From Massariosphaeria phaeospora (taxonomy: Eukaryota; Ascomycota; Dothideomycetes; Pleosporales): DNA of 64,000 nucleotides. Where the stretch lies: positions 967,511 to 1,031,510 of the forward strand of contig JAADJZ010000017.1 in assembly GCA_011032825.1 (NCBI GenBank), in the 5' to 3' direction. A program made the translations under genes and the position numbers. Positions 28,723-64,000 of this stretch are shown one piece after another. Every line of letters begins with the position of its first letter. Position 1 is the first letter of the stretch. Below the pieces are notes generated by a model. It was not told where the DNA came from. It ran no database searches and saw only the letters and a program-made list of their open reading frames with translations.

Positions 28723-29518
28723 GACTAGGGAGTGCGAAAGAAGCGGATGTAGAGCGATGCTTGAGACGGTTGTCAGTAGTAGGTACGAAATGTGCGAGAG
28801 TAGCGACGAGCAGTTGCGGGGTTCGGGAGAGGTGCCGCGAACGCGGTGGTATGCTGTGCTACTCACTTACATATTCGAAAGTAAAATGCCAAACTAGAGC
28901 ATTATCCCGCAGTATGCAGGGTAATGTAAGCTGCCTTCCCAGTCCAGCGACGTGCCGCCGCACACTCTACGCAAAACCTATCACTCACCAACCCAGTCCA
29001 TACGGCACAGCTCAGCAAGCAAGCGCCGCCAACCGCCTATCTGCACCAATCCCGAGGCAGCGGTACCACCGATCGACAAGCACGCCATGCATGAGCCCGT
29101 CGTATTTCTTCGATAATGCTACGGCAGAGCCCTTTCAGAAAGTGTTGGGAATAGACAGCTATAATTTCGGAGGACGGGATAGGATATGTATGGTGGGATG
29201 CTGTAAATCCAGGATGAGCAGATACCTGGTACTTCTATACGGCTCGGATCAAGGCAACACTGCCGATTGGAAGCCCCTTGAAGCTCCGCTTTGCTCAGCT
29301 CATTTGATGCGGGTAAGTCGAGTGGAAAGGATGTCCCACTCCATCGCCATCGCCATCCTGCGTCGACAACAAAGCAGAGTCCTGATTGTGTCGGGCCCGG
29401 AGAGGCGCGGAAGATGACCGATCATCTCCATATTCTACGCATCCCCTATACAAATCTGATCAATGTCGCGTAACTCAGTCAAATCGATACTCCAAATATC
29501 ATCGTCGCCATTCTCACC
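28723..29518. other. Intergenic, no gene recognised
   Basis: A long plus frame (28,761-29,417) has arginine/serine-rich composition and no family likeness. Upstream region of the second receptor gene. Confidence 0.45.
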
Positions 29519-30662
29519 ATGTCGCAAACCATCGTCTCGGCCACAAACCGCACTCCAGTCATCCAGATCGTCACCTGGCTCTGTCTCATCACAAGCACAC
29601 TCGCCTTCACGGCCCACGCATGCATCAAGATCTTCAGTTTGCGCGTTTGCAGTGCAGAGACGTTATTAGGCGGTTTGTCCTTGGTGAGTGATATGCCAGC
29701 CCCCTTGCTCCACTCATGTAATTTGAGACTGAAGTGTACGCAAAGGTATTCAGCGCTGCGCAATCGGTTGCGGTGACCATCCAAGCCGCCAATGGATTCG
29801 GGCAGCCAGCAGAGTCGCTGAGTGAAGCGCAGGTGCGCGCTAGTATCAAGAGTGGGTATGCGGCGGAGATCTTTCTCATGGTGGCAATGGGGCTTTCGAA
29901 GATGGCGATGGTTGCTTTCATCCATGGCTTGACGCCGCGGAAAGTGGACCGAGGATTCAACTACGCTCTAGGCGGGTTCGCTGTCTTGTGGACGGCGTCT
30001 TCAGTGTTGGTGTCGGCTTTCCAGTGCGGAGCATCGCAGCCGTGGGACTTGCGATCGAGCGCGTGCATCGATCGTGTAGGTTGGCCGATTTTTCTATGGC
30101 ACTCTCCAAGGCTGACTGGCTTGTAGTTTGCGTGGTGGTATGCGGTCGGAATATTGAATATTGGTTCTGAAGTTGCGATCGTGGCGCTTGAAGTGGGCAT
30201 GATGGTTCCTCTTCATATCACCCGCTTGAGAAAACTGTCTATCATTAGTCTGTTCGCATGCCGATTATTGTATGCACCCAGTTCGTCTTATTTCTGAAAC
30301 CATCGCTGACGGCACGCAGCTTCCCAGTTGCCGCAGCGGTACAGCTACATGTCTTTCAACAAGACAGCAAAGGAGAGCTCCGATATGACTTCATGCTCGG
30401 ATACTGGCGGTCGACGATCTGTACCCAGGTCATGCAGTGTCTCGCCATCGTCACGACGGCGCTGCCGTACGCCAAACTGTTCATGGACACCTTTGATTCG
30501 GGCCTGGTCCGTGTAGACGACTTGCGACGACGCGCAGAGCAGACGACGGGCGACGGCAGTGCCCGAGAGTATAAATTGCTGGAGGTTTCTGGCTCTGGCC
30601 AAACGTCCCAGGCCGCGGACGGAATCAGGCGCACGCAGACTTGGACGGTGGAGCGGACCTAG
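29519..30662 (+). CDS. PTH11-like integral membrane receptor (second)
   Basis: Four exons: 29519-29683, 29746-30075, 30127-30269 and 30320-30662; 326 residues. The first intron uses the acceptor CAAAG at 29745, which keeps frame and gives SLVFSAAQSVAV, the family's second helix. A nearer AG would shift the frame. About seven hydrophobic helices, a FAWWYAVGILNIGSEVAI helix and a short polar tail place it with fungal rhodopsin-like membrane proteins. It is shorter and divergent from the receptor at 11.3 kb, so not a recent duplicate. Plasma-membrane sensing is the family proposal; no ligand is known. Confidence 0.8.
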
Positions 30663-30708
30663 GATAGATAATGCCGCCGCCCTGATTCATTTCCAATGGG
30701 CACCTAAA

Positions 30709-30843
30709 CACACTCTTACTGTAGTGGATACAATAGGCCTTTGCAGAGACAGAGATAGCCTGTCTACTAGTTGCTAAAAACTCTTAAGCTGTCCAAAGGA
30801 TCGCCCGAAGTCTTCTTTATCGGAGATAAATTATGGCAGGGGG
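30709..30843 (+). repeat. Dispersed short repeat, copy 6
   Basis: Blocks CTTACTGTAGTGGATACAAT, AGGCCTTTGCAGAGACAGAG, GTTGCTAAAAACTC, CTGTCCAAAGGATCGCCC and ATAAATTATGGCAGGGGG, in family order. It lies 47 bases downstream of the receptor stop. Confidence 0.72.
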
Positions 30844-31161
30844 ATGACGCTGGATGTCTTGATGCTTTCTCAAGATGGGAGACTCACCGCGGCTGCACAC
30901 CACTCCCTCACGCGCGGGTCGGCAGAATTGTTTTTCTTGGATAATGTATCCCATGTGGCACAGCATCTGCAGTCGTGCAAGGGCATATCATCAACACGGG
31001 ATAGCTCGCATGAGAACCAGTCTGTCGGAAGCGCCGAACCCTTTAGCATATGAAGCCCTCGGCGCGCGATTATTGTAAATACCCGCGCGTCGCTCGAGCA
31101 ATTCACGTCTCCATACGCGAAAAACTTCCATCCGTTTCGTTCGAATATTGTTAACATCGAG
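30844..31161. other. Permease upstream region
   Basis: No gene recognised; leads into the permease ATG at 31162. Confidence 0.4.
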
Positions 31162-33242
31162 ATGGCGCCTTCCACCGAGCCCCATGTCGTGGAACTCGGC
31201 GAAATCCGGACGAGATCGAAGGCGGCGGAAACGGACGAGGCCGCGCTGAGCAGGCTGGGGAAGAAAACGGTGCTCAAGGTGAGTGGCGTACAAGCTACGA
31301 GGGTGTCGACGAAGAAGGAAAGCTAACAGAAAGGGAGTAGAGGAGATTCGGATTCCTGTCGACTCTGGGATTCAGTTGTACGGTTTTGATCACTTGGGAA
31401 GCGTCGTTGATGTGAGTCGCGCCAACTCAGCTATGGGCAATAAAGCTGATCTTCAGGCAGTTTGTTTCTTGTCGGATTGCAGAAGTAGGTCTCGTGGATA
31501 TGTATTCGCGTTGATGGGATGCTGATGATTCCACCAGCGGCGGACCCGCAGGCGTGGTTTACGGGTACCTTGTCGTATGGGCGGGAACTATTTCGACGTT
31601 CATGGTGCTTTGTGAGTTGGTGTCAATGTGAGGAAGTCCATGCATCCTTTACCGCCGCCACCCTGCTAACTGCTTCGTAGGGCTCCGACATCGGGCGGAC
31701 AGTACCATTGGGTTGCGATGCTTGCGCCTCGATCACAGCGTAAGGTGCTAAGCTACGTATCAGGTATGCATCACCACTCATACTGTATGCGAACAGTGGC
31801 TAATCCGGTGTCACAATCAGGCTGGCTTACCGTGTGCGGTTGGCAAGCCTCCGTCGGTTCTGGTGCATACCTGACGGGAACAATGGTCCAAGGACTTATC
31901 ATCTTGACGCGGCCGGATTATATTCCTGAGAACTGGCATGGCACGTTGCTCTACTGGGCAGTTATGCTCTTCTGTGTCATCATCAACGTGGCAGCCGGCT
32001 GGCTCCTGCCAAAATACGAGGGTGCAATGATTGTGCTCCACATTTTAGGCTTTTTTGGTATTATGATCCCTTTATTGACGTTGGGGCCGAAGGGCAGTCC
32101 CGGAGACGTCTTCACGACGTTCATGAACCTCGGCGAGTGGAAATCGCAAGGGTTGTCGTTCTGTATTGGAATTATGGGAACCGTGTTCGCGTTTGTTGGT
32201 AAGCGCCCCATTCGAGGCAGTTTACTCCGTAACAGTGCCGAATAATGACTGACTTGACTGCCCAGGCGGAGATGGCCCGATTCACGTAAGTCAAACGTCA
32301 GTAGCGGAAGTTCAACTGTCATCCTAACCCGTCAGATGTGCGAAGAAATCCAAAACGCAGCTATCGTTGTGCCCAGATCCATCTTGACCGGCGTTATGAT
32401 CAACGGTTCCCTCGGTTTCGCAATGGTACTCACTATCCTCTTCCGAGCTGGTGACATCGACCAGGCAATCGTAGAAAACCCGGCCTACCCATACATGGCG
32501 ATTTTCAAGCACGCAGTCAACTCGACATCCGGAGCAGCCGCGATGGCTTCGTTGATCATGGTACTGGCCATGAGTTCGAACGTCGGGCTGTTGGCTTCGT
32601 CGTCCCGCGTGTTTTGGGCATTCTCGCGGGACAAAGGCCTTCCAGGATGGCGCACATTGAGCAAGGTGAGTTTGGAGATGCACTGGGAGCACATGGCATG
32701 CGACTGACAGCGAGTGATAGATCAGCCCAAGGACATCCATTCCCGTGTACTCTGTTACGGCCACTACCGTGATCGCATGCATCCTAGCTCTTGTGAACAT
32801 CGGCTCGTCAACTGCATTCAACGGCATTATCTCAATTGCCATTGCCGGGCTCTTCTCATCGTACCTCCTAGTCACTGCCCTCTTGTTATACCGACGCTGC
32901 ACTGGCGGCGTGGTGCCTGCCAACGCGAGTGTCGAAGGTAGCTCCATAGCGGATGGTGCCACGTACACGCCAATCATCTGGGGACCTTGGAGATTGCCTG
33001 GGGTGGTTGGCATCGCAAACAACGTCTTCGCTTGTGCCTATCTGGCATTCGTGCTATTCTTCAGCTTCTGGCCCAGTTACGCGGCGGTCACACCCAAGAC
33101 AATGAACTGGTCCATACTGGTGACTGGCTTCGTGGCGGTGTTCAGCACGCTCTACTACGTTGTTTGGGCGAGGAAGACGTATAACGGCCCCATTGTCGAG
33201 GTGGAGCCGCACTATGTAGACGATGTGTCTTCGAAGTATTAG
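31162..33242 (+). CDS. APC-superfamily amino-acid/GABA/choline-type permease
   Basis: Nine exons: 31162-31278, 31341-31411, 31461-31484, 31538-31627, 31681-31763, 31821-32198, 32266-32285, 32336-32665 and 32721-33242. Every junction is in phase and the product is 544 residues. Two exons are very short (24 and 20 bases). About twelve membrane helices are visible. Family landmarks are FLSTLGFSCTVLITWEAS, NGGPAGVVYGYLV, SGGQYHWVAMLAP, GPIHMCEEIQNAA, the MSSNVGLLASSSRVFWAFSR helix and RDKGLPGW, all typical of the fungal ACT/GABA-permease group. It is predicted to move amino acids or choline across the plasma membrane with protons. No lesion seen. Confidence 0.9.
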
Positions 33243-54489: not shown

Positions 54490-55640
54490 AAAACAGCAAC
54501 TAGCTAAAGCTGCTCTTAGTAAGCAGTTTTAGCTTTGGAGGAACTTTGGTGTTGTTGGCTAGCTTTACAACTTCGTAAATGCAGTGTGTGCATCTTACAA
54601 GCGTCGCGAGCTCTTCAACACGGTGCAATTAGAGGTAAACAACAAGCTGCTGTACTATTCAACACTCTAGAGCTTCGTCAAGATAGTAGCGTTCGCTAGA
54701 ACAGCGTCTATCTTATGCTCTTCCGCTGCTACGAACTTAAGGAACATATTAATCGCTTCATCGCCGGCTCGCCGGCTATGAAGCTTCTGCGACGAGCTCG
54801 ATTACAGCCCCTCTACGACACGATTACTAAAGACGACTAGAATAACGTGAAAGATCTCATCGACTTCCTCGAGGCTCTATACTAGATAACGAAGCAGCTA
54901 GAGAGCAACAACAGCGGCAATAGCTTCGATTACTTTGGCAAACACTGCTAAACTTGCAAGCTTTGTAGGTGCACTTTGAGGAAGCTCGCGAGCAGCCTCA
55001 CAGTGAGTACATAGCTTCTGCGATTGCCCTCGGCTTCGAGAAGCTCAACACCTACTTCACAACTCTTATCTATAAGCCTAACGTCAGCTACTACACCATC
55101 GCTACTGCCTCAACCTAGCGCTCCGCTTGAACTAGTTTCAAACCCAGTAGAAGCACTATCTCCAGTGGGTAACCAAGGCGCAGAAGTCGCTCAAGAAGGT
55201 GTTTGATGACTACGTAAAGCAGGACGCCGCAGCTGACAACGACAAGCTCTGAGAACCACCTCCATCACGCTGCAAGCTCCTAGCCAACGACCTCTACTTA
55301 CGGGCCACTGCCGTCGACACTCACCTTCTCACCGGCAGCAAAACAAACAGCAGCGACGCTTTAGGCAGGTTGATGAGTACTTCGAAGCACTTTGCGCTGA
55401 CCTCAATACTACAAACGAGAGAGAGACCGCTTTTAGAGGAGCCGTACGAGTGGTGGCAGGCTCACGGCCGTAACCGGTACCCCATCCTCTTTAAAATGGC
55501 TACCGACTACCTCGCCATCCCATCTACGAGCTGCGACTGCGAGCGCGCCTTCAGCTCCGCGCGACGAACTATCATGACGACCGAAACGGGCTTAGCGGCA
55601 GCACAATCGAGGCACTACAATTGCAGAAGAACTAGGTAAG
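54490..55640 (+). mobile_element. C-terminal part of a second hAT transposon, RIP-decayed
   Basis: In shifting frames on the plus strand: LWRNFGVVG and LYNFVNAVCASYKRR, then NSVYLMLFRCYELKEHINRF, and finally the dimerisation domain EPYEWWQAHGRNRYPILF with PSTSCDCERAFSSARRTI (55,430-55,600). The N-terminal half with the zinc finger is not present. Its orientation is opposite to the hAT at 45.5 kb. Terminal repeats not identified. Confidence 0.72.
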
Positions 55641-55954
55641 GAGAGGTGTTGTGAAGAGCAGTATCACGGAGCTCGCAAAACGGGTGGAGAGCCTCACCAA
55701 AACGAGCGATTTTGGATCGATCGATTCCGCCTTGCGCTGCTCTTTCAGCTCCTCCCAAAACGTCACCCTGAGCCAATAGGCGGCCTGTGCCACCTACGGC
55801 AGTACCTACGGTTACGACAGCCTCCCATACCCAAACCTTCACCACCGTACGTAGCGTAGGCCCAATCGGGCCGTAGCGTAGGCTGACTACCCACTAGTAG
55901 CCGTACTACGGACTGCTGGCCACGCTGTGTCGACATTCAGCATTAGTCGAAGCC

Positions 55955-56820
55955 TTAAAGCAATAGGACGGTCAAGGAAAGCCGCCAGCGGCCATCCGTC
56001 TTCGGAAGCGTTACGGCAAGAACCCTTGATCGAGAAAACGTCCAGGTCTTTCTGATCATACCATCATGTGCGGCCTCAACAGTATGTATACAGCTGTCTT
56101 GCAGCAGGCTCCCGATTTGGTTTTTCGGCGAAGTGACCAAACTGCTTTGGACAAAGGCCGAGTACCACACATGGATCAGGTCTTCGGCTACTGAGCCATA
56201 TGAAGCGTGGCTAGAAGACATGTCGTCCAAGAAAGCAAAACCAAAAGGAGTATCACCGCGTTACGCGCGACAACGTCAAACTCCCAATCAGTGGCCGTCA
56301 TATCGACGTGTTTGTTGAAAGACTCCGGTAGGCCACGCAGTGTTTTGATCATATTTCTGAGATCACCGGAGACTACGAAGAATCAGTTTCAGAAAGTCGA
56401 CTGTCCTTGTGGTAAGCTCACCAGCAAACGTCAGTTGTGTATTTCTATCGTAGCTCTCGCCTTCGTTTCAAGAATTCCGTAGAATGTCGATTGCTGGGAC
56501 GTTACCCCATAGATACTTGCTAGATCCAAAGGGATTGTGCAGATTCTGAGAGGCTTCACCGATCGCCCATATTGGCGCTCTATCTGTCCGGCCCCACTCA
56601 GGGACCAGCTTGACTTGTTGAGAGGGCTTCTGCACCCCAATTTGTGACTGGGCCAGTGAAGCTTTTGACAAATTGTTCCACAGTACTTTGTAGGATTGGA
56701 AATTGCCCTATAATGTGGGTTCGCGAGGCTTACCGCAACAGCTTGCAATCCTTGCAGACAAAAGAGCCTTCTTACGTGCAAGATCTAGTTGCACATCTGA
56801 CAGGTACTATGGGGATCCAA
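55955..56820 (-). pseudogene. Degraded MYND/DUF4470 paralogue
   Basis: Minus-strand pieces mirror the intact gene at 4.6-6.6 kb. CKDCKLL is followed by an intron-like GTAAGC...ACAAAG and then YCGTICQKLHWPSHKLGC, the MYND finger with the intron at the same place. YLWGNVPAIDIL matches YSWGNMPALNIL, and FDVVARNAVILLL matches VARNAMLLL. EDLIHVWYSAFV matches SIMIHLWYSASM. The frames change repeatedly and stops intervene, so it is non-functional. It lies between hAT remnants and non-coding DNA. Confidence 0.75.
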
Positions 56821-58591
56821 CTCATTGTCGTGTAGCTGGAGTTCGTTTGACGAATGCTGGGTTGAGCTGAGCTTTGTTTACACGAGGCGAAATATCGAAT
56901 CCAAATTTTCTCGTGATAGTTACGGAATGACAGCTTACTGGTCTGCTTCGTGTCACCTATGACATGAACTGGGATGTCTTGTCCCGACCTTCAGTATCCA
57001 CTTCGTCGCTGCGGGCAGCCATAACCGTGACACAGACTGCTAACGGTGGGGGCGCGTAAAAGCGATCTAATAAGCTTCAGGATGTAGACCGTGGGTCTCC
57101 TGTAAGAGGTACATGAAGCACCTTATGGTCTGGATTTGTCCTTCATCGTTTCTCATCATAGATATTTCGCTAGTGATTGAGCGCATGCGCACCGTAGAGT
57201 GAAGTGACATGAGCGGAGAACAACATTTCCAATCACGGATGCGTAGTTGTGGGCAACGCCCGTCTGGGAGAGTCTGCGTTGCCAGTACCGCATTCCCTAG
57301 TGCGCAACGTTATTGCTGCACGGGACTACAGGTCATGACCGTATTTTACTGATGAAGAGACGTAAATTGATCCATGATGGGTGCACCGTCAAGCGTCAAG
57401 CGCGAGGAAACTGGAGGTGCAGCGAGTGAAAACATTTAAGAATGGTGGAAATAGAAAGGAGCACAGTCGCTCTAGTTCAACAGAGCGGCGAATTATCGAG
57501 CGGACCGACAGGGCCGACTAAGATTCTAATATCAGAACCCCAAACTCGTCAGTCTCTTCGTCTTCATCTTTGGATATCGAAAGCTTTGTGGATCTATCAG
57601 ACAACGATGATACATCGACCAAAACTTCCCAAACATCTGAGCCACGGATCCTGAGCGTAAGCCTCTTACTGCCATTAGGAAGATCTGAATCATAGAGAAG
57701 CGAGGCCGTTTTGCGCTAGCAAAGGCTCAGCTCCTCGCTTGAGCGAATGTCATAATCAAGCAGGGTAATTATCCCACCTCATTCCGCTGCCCATCCCAAT
57801 ACTTCGCTTGTGAAACTGTGGAAAATCCAACTTCCTTTTTGCTATTGTACTGTAGCGTCACTTCAGACGCGACGACTTCAAAGTTTAGCAGTGTTACCAC
57901 TTATTAGGACAAAACTACTGAGGCCAGAACGGATGCACGTAATTAGCTGTGTCGAAACCATACAAAGCACAAAATTATTGTGACCAGTGTAAGTTCGATT
58001 CTTGGTTCATGAAGAGTTCGCCTACTTGAACCTAGGTGTGAATAGACTAGCGTCATGGTTGCCGTCAGGCGCCAGCGGTGTTCTAGTTTCTGAATGGATC
58101 AGGCTTCTGCTTGGAGTATTAGTGCTTGCGGTACCAAAACTTGCCGCCACAGTAAGTTAACACCCTTTTTTTCATCTTAGGTTCCAAAACAGTCATTAGG
58201 ACCCCTGGGCTAATGCTATATCCTGTCGTACGATTCAATTAGTGTTTTTGTAAGTGAGCAATTTTGAAGGATGTGTATCAAGGCTGTGAGGGAGGACACG
58301 ATGGAGTTGTACGTTTGGATCTCAACGAGTCGAAGAGGTCGCTAAGTGCATAAGTCTTATATCGAGCGAAAGAGCAAAGGTTTCAGATCAGCGAAAGTAG
58401 TCTAATTTGACGTCCCTCAACAATATATAGACAACGAGGAAACAAACTTAGCCTCAAATGTCAGCATCTACGTCACTCAGGAGTAGCGTGTTTCATCACT
58501 GATTATGTAACAGGAAGATATATATTCGCTCTCTCGATAGACTCTATCAATCAACCAACTACTTCCTCAATCTCCTCCTTATATGTTGACA
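56821..58591. other. Intergenic, no gene recognised
   Basis: Composition is closer to unique DNA than to the RIP-decayed blocks. A frame around 57,540-57,650 is serine/aspartate-rich but has no family match. Confidence 0.4.
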
Positions 58592-58993
58592 TCAAATGAT
58601 GGAAAGTTGAGCCAAGAGTCCCACAAGGTCGCTGTTGACTGTGATCTGCCGAAGGTCCGCGTCCCTAGCGGGTGCGTAGAAGTCACACGCCCCCAATCTA
58701 CATACATAGTGCACCCCACGAGGGACCTGCGTCTCTGGACCCGCAACCTGCCTTTTACTTGAGGTCCCACAATTGCATGGTGGGTTGTTCGGATCGTTCC
58801 CTCGATCATCTGCGAAGCCAAGGAACTTTCCGCAAGGCACACATTTGTTGTAGTGCCGTCCTGCATTCCCTTTGCGGTTCGAGCATCGGGTGATGAACTT
58901 TGCGCTTGGTCCACTGCATAGAAAGCATTTGGGTGGCACCTCTGGAGGTGGGGTGAGGTTTATCCTTTCAAGACTTGATAGGTCGAAGGACAT
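58592..58993 (-). CDS. Small GRF-like zinc-finger protein
   Basis: Complete 133-residue frame from ATG 58993. Cysteines at 23, 26, 37, 51, 54, 73, 75, 98 and 103, with the pattern RCSNRKGNAGRHYNKCVPCGKFLGF, resemble GRF-type zinc fingers (N-x-GR-x-Y-x-C). These bind nucleic acid or protein in topoisomerase III, NEIL3 and APE2-like proteins. Here the finger stands alone in a short protein, as often seen in fungal genomes near repeats. Function unknown; DNA or RNA binding is inference. It has no stops or frameshifts although surrounded by decayed elements. Confidence 0.65.
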   Translation of the reverse strand: MSFDLSSLERINLTPPPEVPPKCFLCSGPSAKFITRCSNRKGNAGRHYNKCVPCGKFLGFADDRGNDPNNPPCNCGTSSKRQVAGPETQVPRGVHYVCRLGACDFYAPARDADLRQITVNSDLVGLLAQLSII

Positions 58994-60225
58994 ATGGTTC
59001 TGATCACATGTTAGCCAGCCTTGTAAAGGTGAAAAAGCACGGGGTGATTACGGTCATAACGGGAGCCGGCCTAACAGGTTCAATGTAGGTGTGAGAGTAT
59101 CTCGTATTCGATAGGTGTGGATTTGAAGACTGATGAGGAGCAAGTGCGGAAGTGAGAGCTCTATATACGCTATGAAACAAGTGCACAAACACCTAGAAGG
59201 TCCTGGAACTCTGTGTGAACTTATATGGCAAACATACCTAGAACACAAACACGCAGAAGACCATAGAGTATTCTGGAGCATGATAGCTCACATAATTAAA
59301 GTAAGAGGAAGCGTGTGAACGTGAAGTTGTGTGTTTGTTTGTCTCAAGCACGCGCTCACGCCATCGATAGCTAGCCCCACGTCGCTCGTGCCGAGCTCGC
59401 CGCCGCAGATCTACTTCATTACTGGATCTACTCATCCTCGAGGCCTCGCTGCACTCCGAGTAACTGACCCTCCACACGCGCCACCGCCAGAACACATTCG
59501 TCCTGATGCCTACGCTTGGATGTCTCAGGCTTCTGTCCTTCACAAAAAGTTTGCGTCTCCCAGTCTGCGAGTGAGAGGACCACAGTCTTCCAAGACGCTT
59601 CTGCTGTGTTGTGATCTATGTGTACAGGAGCTCTCGGTTCAGAGGTAAGTGCACTTGCCCACCGGGCAGTGCCTGCTACAATAGAACATCATGTGATTCA
59701 GCCCACGTGGTTACAAATGGGCGTATCAACTCTTCCACCTTGTAGATGCAGCAAGACACTTCTGGCACAGAGACTGCGGGGTAATACGTTGTATCACCAG
59801 TGACGTGGCAATCTCAAGCCGCGGGCCCCACTATTTGGATCAAACTAGTTTCGCGGAGAACTATAGACAGTAGGCAAGCGATGACTACGTTGTGTTCGCC
59901 AACTTGTCGCAGCTATAGATGTTGCTGTCATGAGCGTCGCATGCAGGAGTTGTCGTCGAACATCTCCTGCGCTGCCGCCAGCTCGACAGCCAGCGCGCAC
60001 ACCCATCCTACCGTATACTCTTCGCGGCGTAGCTGGCGCGGCATTTGGGGCCGTTGCTAAGGAGAAGGAGACTGGCTGAGTGTGTCTCAGGTGTTGGGTG
60101 TTAAATATTGATGGCTGCAGAAAATGCGCGGAGGTCATTGTCTGACAGGAACAAGCGTGGTCAACGCATGCTGTCGCTCAGGCTCAGGCTGAGCTGAGCC
60201 ACAGCCTTTTGTCGTGTGCAAAATT
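58994..60225. other. Intergenic, no gene recognised
   Basis: A plus frame at 59,331-59,648 lacks any motif. Ends where the long terminal inverted repeat begins. Confidence 0.4.
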
Positions 60226-60388
60226 ACGCGAATTCTTGGCGGATGCGCGCGCGTCAACGCGCACGACTATATCTTCATAGAAATCAAGACAGCCAGCCAT
60301 CCACCTACGGTCGCTTTATCAGTACTCAGGCTAGTGAGGCTATAGAGTTTGGTGTAGGCGCCTATACGTACTGATTTTTTGGCGTTTT
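60226..60388 (+). repeat. Left terminal inverted repeat
   Basis: Outer block ACGCGAATTCTTGGCGGATG...CAAGACAGCCA (about 70 bases) matches the inverted right end with about two differences. A divergent stretch of about 60 bases follows. The inner block GAGTTTGGTGTAGGCGCC...ATTTTTTGGCGTTTT then matches again. Confidence 0.88.
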
Positions 60389-60398
60389 AGAGGCCACC

Positions 60399-61553
60399 AT
60401 GCTCCGCGCCGGCGACCACAGCAGAGCTCCGCAGCGCGCCCGCGCTACCCTTCCTGAACGCGCTGTTCCTGCTCATGGACCTGTTGCCTCTCGCCATGGT
60501 CAGAAATTCGCCTATAAACGCGCCTAGATATACCATTACCTCAGGCAGGGCGTCCTAATAAGCGAAGTACAGAGTCGGGTGGATTGCGGCAAGACTATGG
60601 TGTACAACGTGCACCTGAACCTCATGAAGTATAGGTCGATTCAGGCGCCGCGCTGGTTGAAGCTGGGGCGCCGCCCGAAGCTAACTGAGGCGGATAAATC
60701 TGCGCTGTATGAAGAGCTTTGTGCCTACGGGTGGAGATACCAGGATGAGATGGCGTTTTGGCTGTGGGCGGAGCGAGGAGTGATTGTTGATCGCTCTACA
60801 ATCTCGCGGTTGATAAAAGCAGAGAAATGGAGCTCTCAGGCAATCCATGTTACTGCTCTTGGGCGCAGCGAGGACCTGCACGACGATTACAGGCAAACAA
60901 TGCAGCGCTACGCCGCGGATGAGGTGGTGTTTATCGACGAGTCCATTTTCAACGAGAAGACTGGCTGGAGGCACCGAGCGTACGGACCAATTGGTGGCGA
61001 TAACCGATGGGTAGGCGACGCGCGGAGAGGCAATACGTGGTCGATTTTGCCTGCCTATACGATTAACCATGGCTATCTGGATTGTACTGCCGTGAGACGC
61101 GGTTACTTCAACCTGGAGGCCTTTATGGAGTGGATTGAGCAGTCTCTGCTGCTAGCGATTAATCGACAGATAAAGCGCGCGGTGTGTGTTGTACTAGATA
61201 ACTGCTCTACGCATTAGAATAAGGTTGTCGCTGAAACGATTCGCCGCGCCGGCTACACAGTACAATATTTGCCACCGTACTCACCCGACTACAATCCAAT
61301 CGAGCTCACGTTTGCGGTGTTGAAGGCCTAGGTGCGTAGGCACTTCTATTTCCGGCGTTACGAGTTTCCTAACTTCGGCGCCTTTATAAGATATGCTGTA
61401 GTAGCGAGTAAGTGCAATAGGTTTGCGAGAGACTACTTTCGGCATGCAGCAGAAAGTGGATTGTACGTTGAAAAGGCAGTGTTGAATCGGGCGAGAAATT
61501 TGATGCGGGCGTACGAGCGTAGCGAGGTTAACGCGTTTGAGATGCAAGTGTAG
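60399..61553 (+). pseudogene. Tc1/mariner-type DDE transposase with three TAG stops
   Basis: One 385-codon frame from ATG 60399, which sits in a GCCACCATG context just inside the left TIR. It is interrupted only by TAG at 60525, 61215 and 61329, with no frameshift. The catalytic triad reads FIDES, VLDN (as VVLDNCSTH) and YNPIE, with 34 residues between the last two (DD34E). The N-terminal half has helix-turn-helix character (RPKLTEADKSALYEEL; DRSTISRLI). The contexts CSTH-TAG-NK and LKA-TAG-VRRH suggest former CAG or TGG codons. The distal LPPYSPDYNP motif is the family hallmark. It would have excised and inserted the element. Confidence 0.85.
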
Positions 61554-61588
61554 CAGAGAGGTAGCAAGGCAAGATAGATTTCAACTGT

Positions 61589-63796
61589 CTATCTAATAAA
61601 CCCACTTGGACCGTGTTGCCTATCAACTTGCTCGTTAACTAACTTGCTGCGTTTATACTTAGATTTAAACTGTCGCGCGAGGCGCCTAAATTCTCTTACT
61701 ATACCGTTAGGCAACTCGTAGCTAGGTCCCGTCGCTGTTTTGTACAAGGCCGAGTTAATGTTAGACATTGCCTGTAGATTCTCTATCGTCTAGTAACGCT
61801 TTGTAGCAACTGCCTTTGCTCTATCGTAGTCTCTTTTCCGTTGCTCTGTCCTCTGTCGAGAGATTACCTAGTTAAAGAAAGATTTGACGATATCGTACTC
61901 GTCTGCTGTAGAGTCGACAGGACTAGATAGCTGCGGTATTAACGAGAGTATAGGTATCTCATAGCGGTACGGATTTAGCAAGGTAATTGGCAGCGAATGT
62001 AGCAACATAGGTAAGACAAGCAGCAGCAAAGAAAGTCTATCTGCTGCAATTAACGGCGGCAGAGATTGCGACACTTTACGCTTTTCGTCGTCTCGTTCAA
62101 ATCTCTTCTACAGCTTCTGCTTTCGCTTCTTTTTCCGCTGCTCTATACGCTCTTGCATGACCTCTACTTTCTCCTTTATATCAATCGCTTTGTACTTTAT
62201 CTGCATTTCTTTTATCTTGTCTAGTTGCTCTTCCATTCTAGTTTTTATACGCTAATAAGAGTTCGGTTTAGCAAAGGTAAAGTTGCCGCGCTCTACTAGT
62301 TCTTTCTAGTACAAAAAGTTTTTCGTTTGTACAGTAGGCACCTCTATTATAACTAGCGGTTTACGTTTCTCTAGAGCAGACGCCTAGCCGTTAACGTCAG
62401 CGCTACCTAGTTTGAAATAGAAGCCAGGTTTCTCTGCGTAGTTGTAGTAACAGTAGTTTATTCTGTTTACGCAATCTGCGTCGAGACACTTCTATTAACT
62501 GTATAGCGAGCTCGCTAGCTCTTTTCGCTACTTGTATCTCTCTAACTTCTGCACGGCGTTCTAATCTCGTAGGTATGCTAACCGATTATAGCGACTACCT
62601 ACTCTAGGCGTCGCCGGAGCGAGAGAACCTACGGCCGAAGCTACAGAGGTTTCTGCGCGCTGCTTCAAATTCTTCTTTAGTTTTGCCGCTGCGTTGAGAC
62701 TATCGCACTCAACTTTTACCTCAAACGTCAATCGGATTGGCCAAGTCGAGGCGTTGAAGTGCTCTGCGTCCGCTAGGTTAAGTATCCGCTGCAGAGTTGC
62801 CTTATTGAAGTATTGAAAAGTCTGATATTTGTTAACAGCGCGCGCGGCTAGCGACCGGACAATTACCTGCAGCAGGTCGAACTCGAAATTCTCGTTTTCT
62901 ATTTTGGCAGTGACTTTTTCTATAACGAGACTTTCTAGATTAGTAAAGCTACCCTTAAGCAACGCAGAGCGTCGAATATCCCCTCTACTGTCGTTACAAA
63001 TGTTAGCTTTGTTAACTTATATTTTTACTAGTACGTTCACTACATACTCGACGTCGACATTACGGCTAGTGCGGTAGTCAATCTTCTCCTCTACTATAAA
63101 ATCCTAGGCGGCGAGAGTATCTAGCGTATTCTTTGCGCGTTAGCGTAGCTTTTGCTGCAAATCCTTTTTCGCCTGCTCTCTCCGCAAGCCTTCGGCAGAA
63201 AGCAGCTGGCCGTCATAACCTACGGTGCGTAGAGGGCCAATTGTCGTTGTTTAGCGCTGACGGGGAGTATTGATCTCGTCGTAAATATCCTCATCTTCAA
63301 CCTCCGAACTGACGTCGATAGTCTTACCAGATCGCCCTTTCGACATTATATACTTAGACGCTGCTAAGGCCTCTCCGCCTGACAACTCCGTAAGCATAAG
63401 GCGCCGCCTGGCAGCAAGTTTCTCCAGGTGCGCGAGCTCCGCTCGTTTCTGCTCCAAATCCACAGCCAATCCCACCTCGCGATGGCCTCACAAACGGATT
63501 CTGCGATGGCTCAGCAGTTGGGCCTACCAAGGTTACCTAGCGCAGCTATAGCAGACGCCGGGCGTCTCTGGATTGGCGGCGGGACTGGTATAGATTTGGA
63601 CCCACTGCGTCCCGCGCAACGCGCAAGCACCACCTCGAGGAGTACCAATAGGCGTACGCTCTTCAAACAGAGTGATGCCTTTAGTAGCGCAAGTGGATTT
63701 TCTGGTGCCTACCAGCGGCGCCAGCTGTACGAGTTGGGCGGGCGGCGTTCTTCGTGCCTTTTTTAGGTAGCATTTCTGGGTGACGATGGTCTGCAA
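61589..63796 (-). pseudogene. Unknown second protein of the long-TIR element, interrupted
   Basis: The open stretches at 63796-63533, 63475-63251, 62962-62561 and 62074-61868, and the final stop at 61589, all lie in the same minus-strand frame. This implies one original frame of up to about 736 codons with only point nonsense changes. Visible features are a helical, charged segment (EQKRAELAHLEKLAARRR), a mixed alpha/beta-looking block (SLVIEKVTAKIENENFEFDL), a possible Cys-rich patch (CLDADC near 62,490) and a long Lys/Glu/Arg coiled coil near 62,250-62,110. I recognise no family. It may be an accessory DNA-binding or assembly protein, which is inference. Confidence 0.55.
63428..63766 (+). 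CDS. Plus-strand frame overlapping the element's second gene
   Basis: A 112-codon open frame without stops on the plus strand, opposite the start region of the minus-strand second gene. From MASQTDSAM its composition (GIDLDPLRPAQRASTTSRS) is protein-like. It could be a third small gene of the element or a chance frame opposite decayed coding DNA. I favour chance. Confidence 0.2.
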   Translation: MRELRSFLLQIHSQSHLAMASQTDSAMAQQLGLPRLPSAAIADAGRLWIGGGTGIDLDPLRPAQRASTTSRSTNRRTLFKQSDAFSSASGFSGAYQRRQLYELGGRRSSCLF

Positions 63797-63822
63797 AACG
63801 GTGTAGTACTCAAAATCTCTGC

Positions 63823-64000
63823 GGAAAACACCAGAAAATTAGTACGTATAGGCGCCTATACCAAACTCTACGGCCTCAACTTACTAAACGACGTCCCTCT
63901 CCCATACGGCGGATATACAGGTCAGATAGATGGCTGTCTTGATTTCTATGAGGATTTAGTCGTGCGCGTTGACGCGCGCGCATCCGCCAAGAATTCGCGT
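63823..64000 (-). repeat. Right terminal inverted repeat (reaches window edge)
   Basis: Inverted match of the left repeat. Its inner block includes the perfect 16-base palindrome GTATAGGCGCCTATAC at 63846-63861. The last bases, read inverted, are ACGCGAATTCTTGG, identical to the left outer end. Confidence 0.88.

Follow-up and report, generated by a model that had tools for sequence, protein, structure and literature searches.

A decayed Tc1/mariner-like element with a convergent second gene in the fungus Massariosphaeria phaeospora

Known two-gene transposons and the element at the end of contig C9

Among transposons, Tc1/mariner elements are the standard example of a self-sufficient type with a single gene, and gene-transfer tools have been built on them. 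The element described here has a different design. It lies in a 64,000-nucleotide stretch of DNA (the window), the terminal part of contig C9 (C9:967511-1031510) in the 42-Mb genome of Massariosphaeria phaeospora (Dothideomycetes, Pleosporales), where it occupies window positions 60209-64000 and is truncated by the contig end. Long terminal inverted repeats enclose a DD34E transposase gene and a second gene that converges on it from the other strand, and there is very little doubt that this arrangement defines a two-gene Tc1/mariner-like family. Our overall reading, to which we give a probability of roughly 55%, is that the element is a member, decayed by repeat-induced point mutation (RIP), of a group of such elements in which the second gene encodes a dedicated accessory factor of transposition.

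Fungal Tc1/mariner elements are described as having a single open reading frame (ORF), a length generally of 1.3-2.4 kb and TA target duplications, with repeats of 36-70 bp in Sclerotinia (PMC4188875); they appear as single-ORF elements in PMC4112212 too, and no second gene is described for the fungal Mariner families named in passages of PMC9910759 and PMC3017866. The elements discussed here share with them a DD34E transposase with a DDE_3 domain, terminal inverted repeats and a 2-bp target duplication, but they have two convergent genes in 3.3-3.8 kb, repeats of at least 100 bp (in the window element and its relatives on contigs C14 and C12) and, in the window family, TT and AT duplications. 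Within the superfamily, additional ORFs occur in the Tec and TBE elements of ciliates; one of those in Tec lies on the opposite strand, and TBE encodes a zinc-finger protein (PMC7325037). The likeness lies in a DD34E transposase accompanied by further ORFs; Tec and TBE differ in being found in ciliates only, in having three ORFs and in having repeats of ~80 or ~700 bp, whereas here there are two genes and a fungal host.

The two-gene design is shared with PIF/Harbinger elements, which have a Harbinger-type transposase and a 3-bp target duplication, whereas the present elements have a DDE_3 transposase, and so belong to another superfamily, and 2-bp duplications. In Harbinger, the transposase and a Myb-like second protein enter the nucleus together, and the latter binds the repeats; it is far more divergent than the transposase and tracks its phylogeny (PMC9179366). 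A faster-evolving second protein is a further likeness, but the one described here has no Myb/SANT match in Pfam. Among the titles and abstract openings listed in literature searches, which did not extend to Repbase Reports and most subscription papers, none concerned a fungal two-gene Tc1/mariner family, and we claim no priority for one.

Architecture, decay and target sites

The transposase frame (60399..61553, plus strand) contains three internal TAG codons and, with stops read as X, matches DDE_3 at E 3.9e-29, the domain lying at about 60924-61358. This agrees with the original prediction, made from the sequence alone, of a DD34E transposase at these positions: the second and third catalytic positions are 34 residues apart in four of five copies examined, the copy on contig C31 being too decayed to match. 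In the C14 transposase the third catalytic position is a stop. DDE_3 is also matched by the transposases of C14, C12 and locus L070.

Both genes are enclosed by inverted repeats. The left one (60209..60388, plus strand) has an outer arm at 60209-60301 and an inner arm at 60335-60388; the right one (63825..64000, minus strand) lacks 17 bp at the contig end. Within the window the complementarity is 95% over 76 nt and 89% over 54 nt, and the repeats extend overall over ~180 bp. A complete copy on contig C2 supplies the final 17 bp and has an outer arm of 93 nt (95.7%), and for this reason the left end is placed at 60209. The repeats of about 165-180 bases foreseen by the original prediction are thus present, but its left end at 60226 has to be moved outwards. 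Terminal inverted repeats were found in the window, C2, C14, C12 and L071 elements.

Thirty-five base pairs (61554..61588) separate the two convergent stop codons. Beyond them the minus-strand frame 63796-61589 runs for 736 codons with 18 stops, the terminal one included, against 29-54 stops in the other five frames. The frame and the gap are as predicted, but the gene itself (61589..63346, minus strand) probably begins at the ATG at 63346, a choice made by analogy with the N-termini of the second proteins of relatives; it would then have 586 codons including the stop, and 15 stops including the terminal one (14 internal). That a single protein was encoded is consistent with the one shared frame; that its decay was recent does not follow, the stops being common to copies. 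By inspection, the product has a basic low-complexity N-terminus, a conserved domain A (62681..63055, minus strand), a Cys motif (62387..62491, minus strand), a basic stretch and a C-terminal segment (61625..61909, minus strand) with 29% identity to a C14 segment in a different frame. The N-terminus is perhaps nuclear, and the tail is basic and, by eye, probably helical. In the Cys motif, C-x4-C-x-N-x4-C is followed by an aromatic residue and then by a stop where relatives have Trp; its pattern suggests that it may bind zinc. The interval from the second gene to the right repeat is probably a leader (63347..63824, minus strand). A plus-strand open frame of 112 codons (63428-63766) is seen in the same interval, in a GC-richer stretch.

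RIP-like stops interrupt both genes. Window 60209-62930 differs from the C31 copy by 470 substitutions, and in 456 of these a C>T or G>A change is directed towards C31. Changed sites make up 48% in CpA, 34% in CpG, 31% in CpT and 25% in CpC contexts. The direction fits RIP, with a CpA preference that is moderate only. The TpA/ApT ratio is 1.82 in the second gene of the window and 1.03 in the transposase, compared with 0.90 for window 1-58000. Every window stop that could be compared is also a stop in C31 (10/10 where the second genes align, 3/3 internal stops in the transposase), and these were either inherited from an already broken copy moved in trans or produced by RIP in parallel. As the stops are mostly TAG, alternative decoding of this codon was considered and rejected: the differences between copies are of RIP type in the proportion just given, and the less decayed relatives C12 and C14 have long open frames.

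TA duplications, which the original prediction proposed to look for, were not what the window family showed. At five insertions duplications were read by eye, from ends set at the conserved TTG/CTG and with no empty sites seen, and all are of 2 bp: TT in the window and C2 copies (left copy at 60207..60208; the right copy is visible only on C2), AT in C31, AT in C14, TA in C12 and TA in L071. AT and TA are palindromic and might be repeat bases, so that TT alone is a plain duplication. The apparent departure of the window lineage from a TA target is suggestive only, with five by-eye cases.

Recurrence of the gene pair

Genome searches, for which repeat, transposase and second gene each served as query, gave three copies of the window family: the window copy, C2:29703-33507 and C31:265036-278502. 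All three have both genes. The C31 copy retains both ends as well, though inserts of about 9.3 and 0.3 kb interrupt it. Window and C2 copies have common flanks (99.88% identity over 5 kb, with similarity extending at least to window 54519) and so represent one insertion, which leaves two independent insertions. A degenerate repeat pattern, allowing up to three mismatches, found five ends genome-wide (three left, two right) and none in the control, and each of the five lies in a copy that has the two genes; no solo repeats or transposase-only copies of the family were found at this threshold, which more decayed ends may escape. Nor are there additional inverted repeats of at least 20 nt bounding the second frame alone in the window element. 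As far as these searches reach, both refuting observations named by the original prediction were absent.

The pair recurs well beyond this family. Loci merged from sequence matches in the M. phaeospora genome number 40 for the transposase and 33 for the second gene, both lower bounds. At 25 of the 40 transposase loci a second-gene homologue lies within 10 kb, in all 25 cases convergent, in place of the usual single-gene state of Tc1/mariner; about 0.16 pairs would be expected under uniform chance. These pairings involve 24 distinct second genes, at a spacing of 1.4 kb or less in 23 pairs and of 6.6 and 7.9 kb in the other two. This supports the proposal of a dedicated accessory gene more strongly than the window sequence alone could, and since the pair recurs in so many related elements of the genome, the second gene looks like a long-kept working part.

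The nearest other transposase, that of C14, is 48% identical to the window's. Its element (L023) has 106-nt repeats and a convergent minus-strand second gene scattered over several frames, the middle part of which aligns with the window second protein over ~300 residues (BLASTP 3e-07; z 12.2, with 0 of 200 shuffles reaching the score). The alignment includes C-x4-C-x-N-x4-C, an aromatic residue or His, and the Trp that is a stop in the window. In the C12 element (L072) the 128-nt repeats match each other at 100%. Its second gene is unbroken, would have 612 codons if counted from the ATG that lies within the repeats, and carries the motif in the form C-x5-C-x-H-x4-C. A loose six-frame scan, with chance matches among its results, gave the motif opposite the transposase in L037, L043, L050, L051 and L056 also, as picked by eye. 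L071 (contig C23) has 36-nt repeats; for L070 (contig C2) none were found in the stretch examined, which may end before the right end. The second protein of L070 is linked to that of C14 (BLASTP 1e-04, shuffle z 7.0) and to that of C12 (3e-05, z 4.8). We take the second genes of the window and L070 to be homologous because C14 bridges them and because they have the motif and the position in common. The NCBI gene model of the L070 second protein (C2:57267-58808, P0002) lacks the greater part of the Cys motif, apparently as a way round an in-frame stop.

A midpoint-rooted tree was made from 26 of 31 transposase matches; L047, L050, L053 and L058 were excluded, as was one match that had no locus. 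The program warned of long branches (C14, C12), and L057, with its second gene 7.9 kb away, was scored as paired. At the deepest split a 100/100 branch separates the window and C14 families from the remainder. Paired elements occur on both sides of it, and the unpaired ones form four rows at four separate tips. One ancient association followed by scattered losses would be the simplest history of the pairing.

Between L070 and L071 the ratio of non-synonymous to synonymous substitution (dN/dS) is 0.30 for the second gene (474 codons) and 0.12 for the transposase (297 codons), as calculated by our own Nei-Gojobori script with stops skipped and with noise added by RIP; between window and C31 the values of 0.41 and 0.31, respectively, are mostly a RIP effect. 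The second gene is under constraint, yet evolves faster than the transposase.

Possible roles of the second protein

Likeliest among the roles considered, though at somewhat less than an even chance, is that of a transposition accessory factor, because the pattern recalls Harbinger: the protein is a fixed partner of the transposase, evolves faster and is basic, and the repeats are long. Such a protein would bind DNA or the transposase and would help the cut-and-paste complex to form on these repeats or to enter the nucleus, like the Myb-like protein of Harbinger. A more far-reaching version is doubtful: that these elements form a distinct two-component fungal branch of Tc1/mariner, with an obligate second protein that binds the unusually long repeats and, in the window and C14 lineage, a TA target relaxed to any AT-rich dinucleotide. 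Were a clade to have retained such a convergent gene across deep divergence, it would demonstrate that two-component transposition can evolve within Tc1/mariner, and would be a natural comparison with Harbinger.

Several results weigh against the accessory-factor reading. At 15 of the 40 transposase loci the search within 10 kb gave no second gene. Distant relatives (24% identity) and fragments are among these loci, but at C37:37796-38761 the transposase shares 83% identity with the L070 one, and this is an apparent transposase-only copy. Conversely, nine second-gene loci lack a listed transposase, one being a split part of the C31 copy. In the tree the unpaired state needs four changes, equal to the shuffles (500/500 as low), and is therefore unclustered. 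The second protein of the window has no direct similarity to the L070 type (z -0.5) and little to that of C12 (z 2.4), and local profile comparison was weak, with probabilities of 37% for C14-window (the best), 22% for the L070 group-C14 and <2% for the other four pairs. No domain or fold match pointed to DNA binding in Pfam (best E 0.014, none at the cut-off), NCBIfam (none at the cut-off, one at E 0.062) or PDB sequence searches (nothing better than E 0.5). An AlphaFold model of P0001 from five sequences had a predicted local distance difference test (pLDDT) score of 38 and was uninformative. The transposases themselves match helix-turn-helix models, so that a DNA-binding helper is not obviously required.

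If the accessory role is wrong, the two-gene unit might instead carry a protein that counteracts host silencing, or RIP and methylation, and does not aid catalysis. VANC does this against host silencing for VANDAL elements. TET/JBP dioxygenases are known as cargo of some fungal DNA transposons (PMC12730594), and the host shows strong, one-directional RIP-like decay between window and C31. We nevertheless consider it unlikely, as the second protein has no enzyme domain at the cut-off, and any protection is poor when many copies have RIP-type stops. Rather less likely again is a protein by which the element represses itself or controls its own copy number; families are small (three copies found for the window family, one each for C14 and C12), but RIP explains low copy number equally, and no sequence feature indicates repression.

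As a captured host gene or a passenger, the second gene would have no part in transposition; its want of a family assignment and the transposase loci that do without it would suit this. Such an origin is improbable: place and orientation are kept between transposases that share only about 30-48% identity with that of the window, the dN/dS of 0.30 indicates constraint, and unpaired rows occur at tips only. A chance nesting of two independent elements, in favour of which nothing was found, can be dismissed, given the same layout in all three copies found and the uniform convergence of the 25 paired loci.

Whatever its role, several proteins annotated as ‘hypothetical’ in M. phaeospora can be assigned to the second-gene family (BDV95DRAFT_164000, BDV95DRAFT_594117, BDV95DRAFT_613603 and BDV95DRAFT_664650). 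Homologue searches of a large database, with the second proteins of relatives as queries, returned M. phaeospora proteins only (one and three), and the NCBI protein 99% identical to the C14 second gene is from this species too. Viral and prokaryote scans gave no relatives, as expected of fungal DNA, and a PDB sequence search with the C14 transposase gave no match at E 0.01.

Some minor observations concern the copies and their surroundings. The end of contig C9 (window 54519-64000) is duplicated near the start of C2 (C2:24000-33490) at about 99-99.9% identity, with C2:24000-24800 matching window 54519-55313 at 99.1%. A simple overlap of the two contigs was rejected, window 29500-32500 being without a match at the C2 start; C2:1-800 and C2:14000-14800 have no match in the window. 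The duplication is either a local segmental one or an assembly artefact, and amounts to one insertion event in either case. The 9.3-kb insert that splits the C31 copy (C31:267755-277076, L022) looks like another mobile element, with ~76 bp of inverted similarity (87%) near its own ends and a 184-bp direct repeat (93%) further inside. A weak match at C4:316194 (E 0.129) was not borne out as a relative, L073 having no inverted repeats. Three transposase remnants, C14:749221, C17:654514 and C18:3433, have equal scores, lengths and stop counts; the first lies 3.4 kb from its contig end and the last 3.4 kb from its contig start, and they are possibly subtelomeric duplicates.

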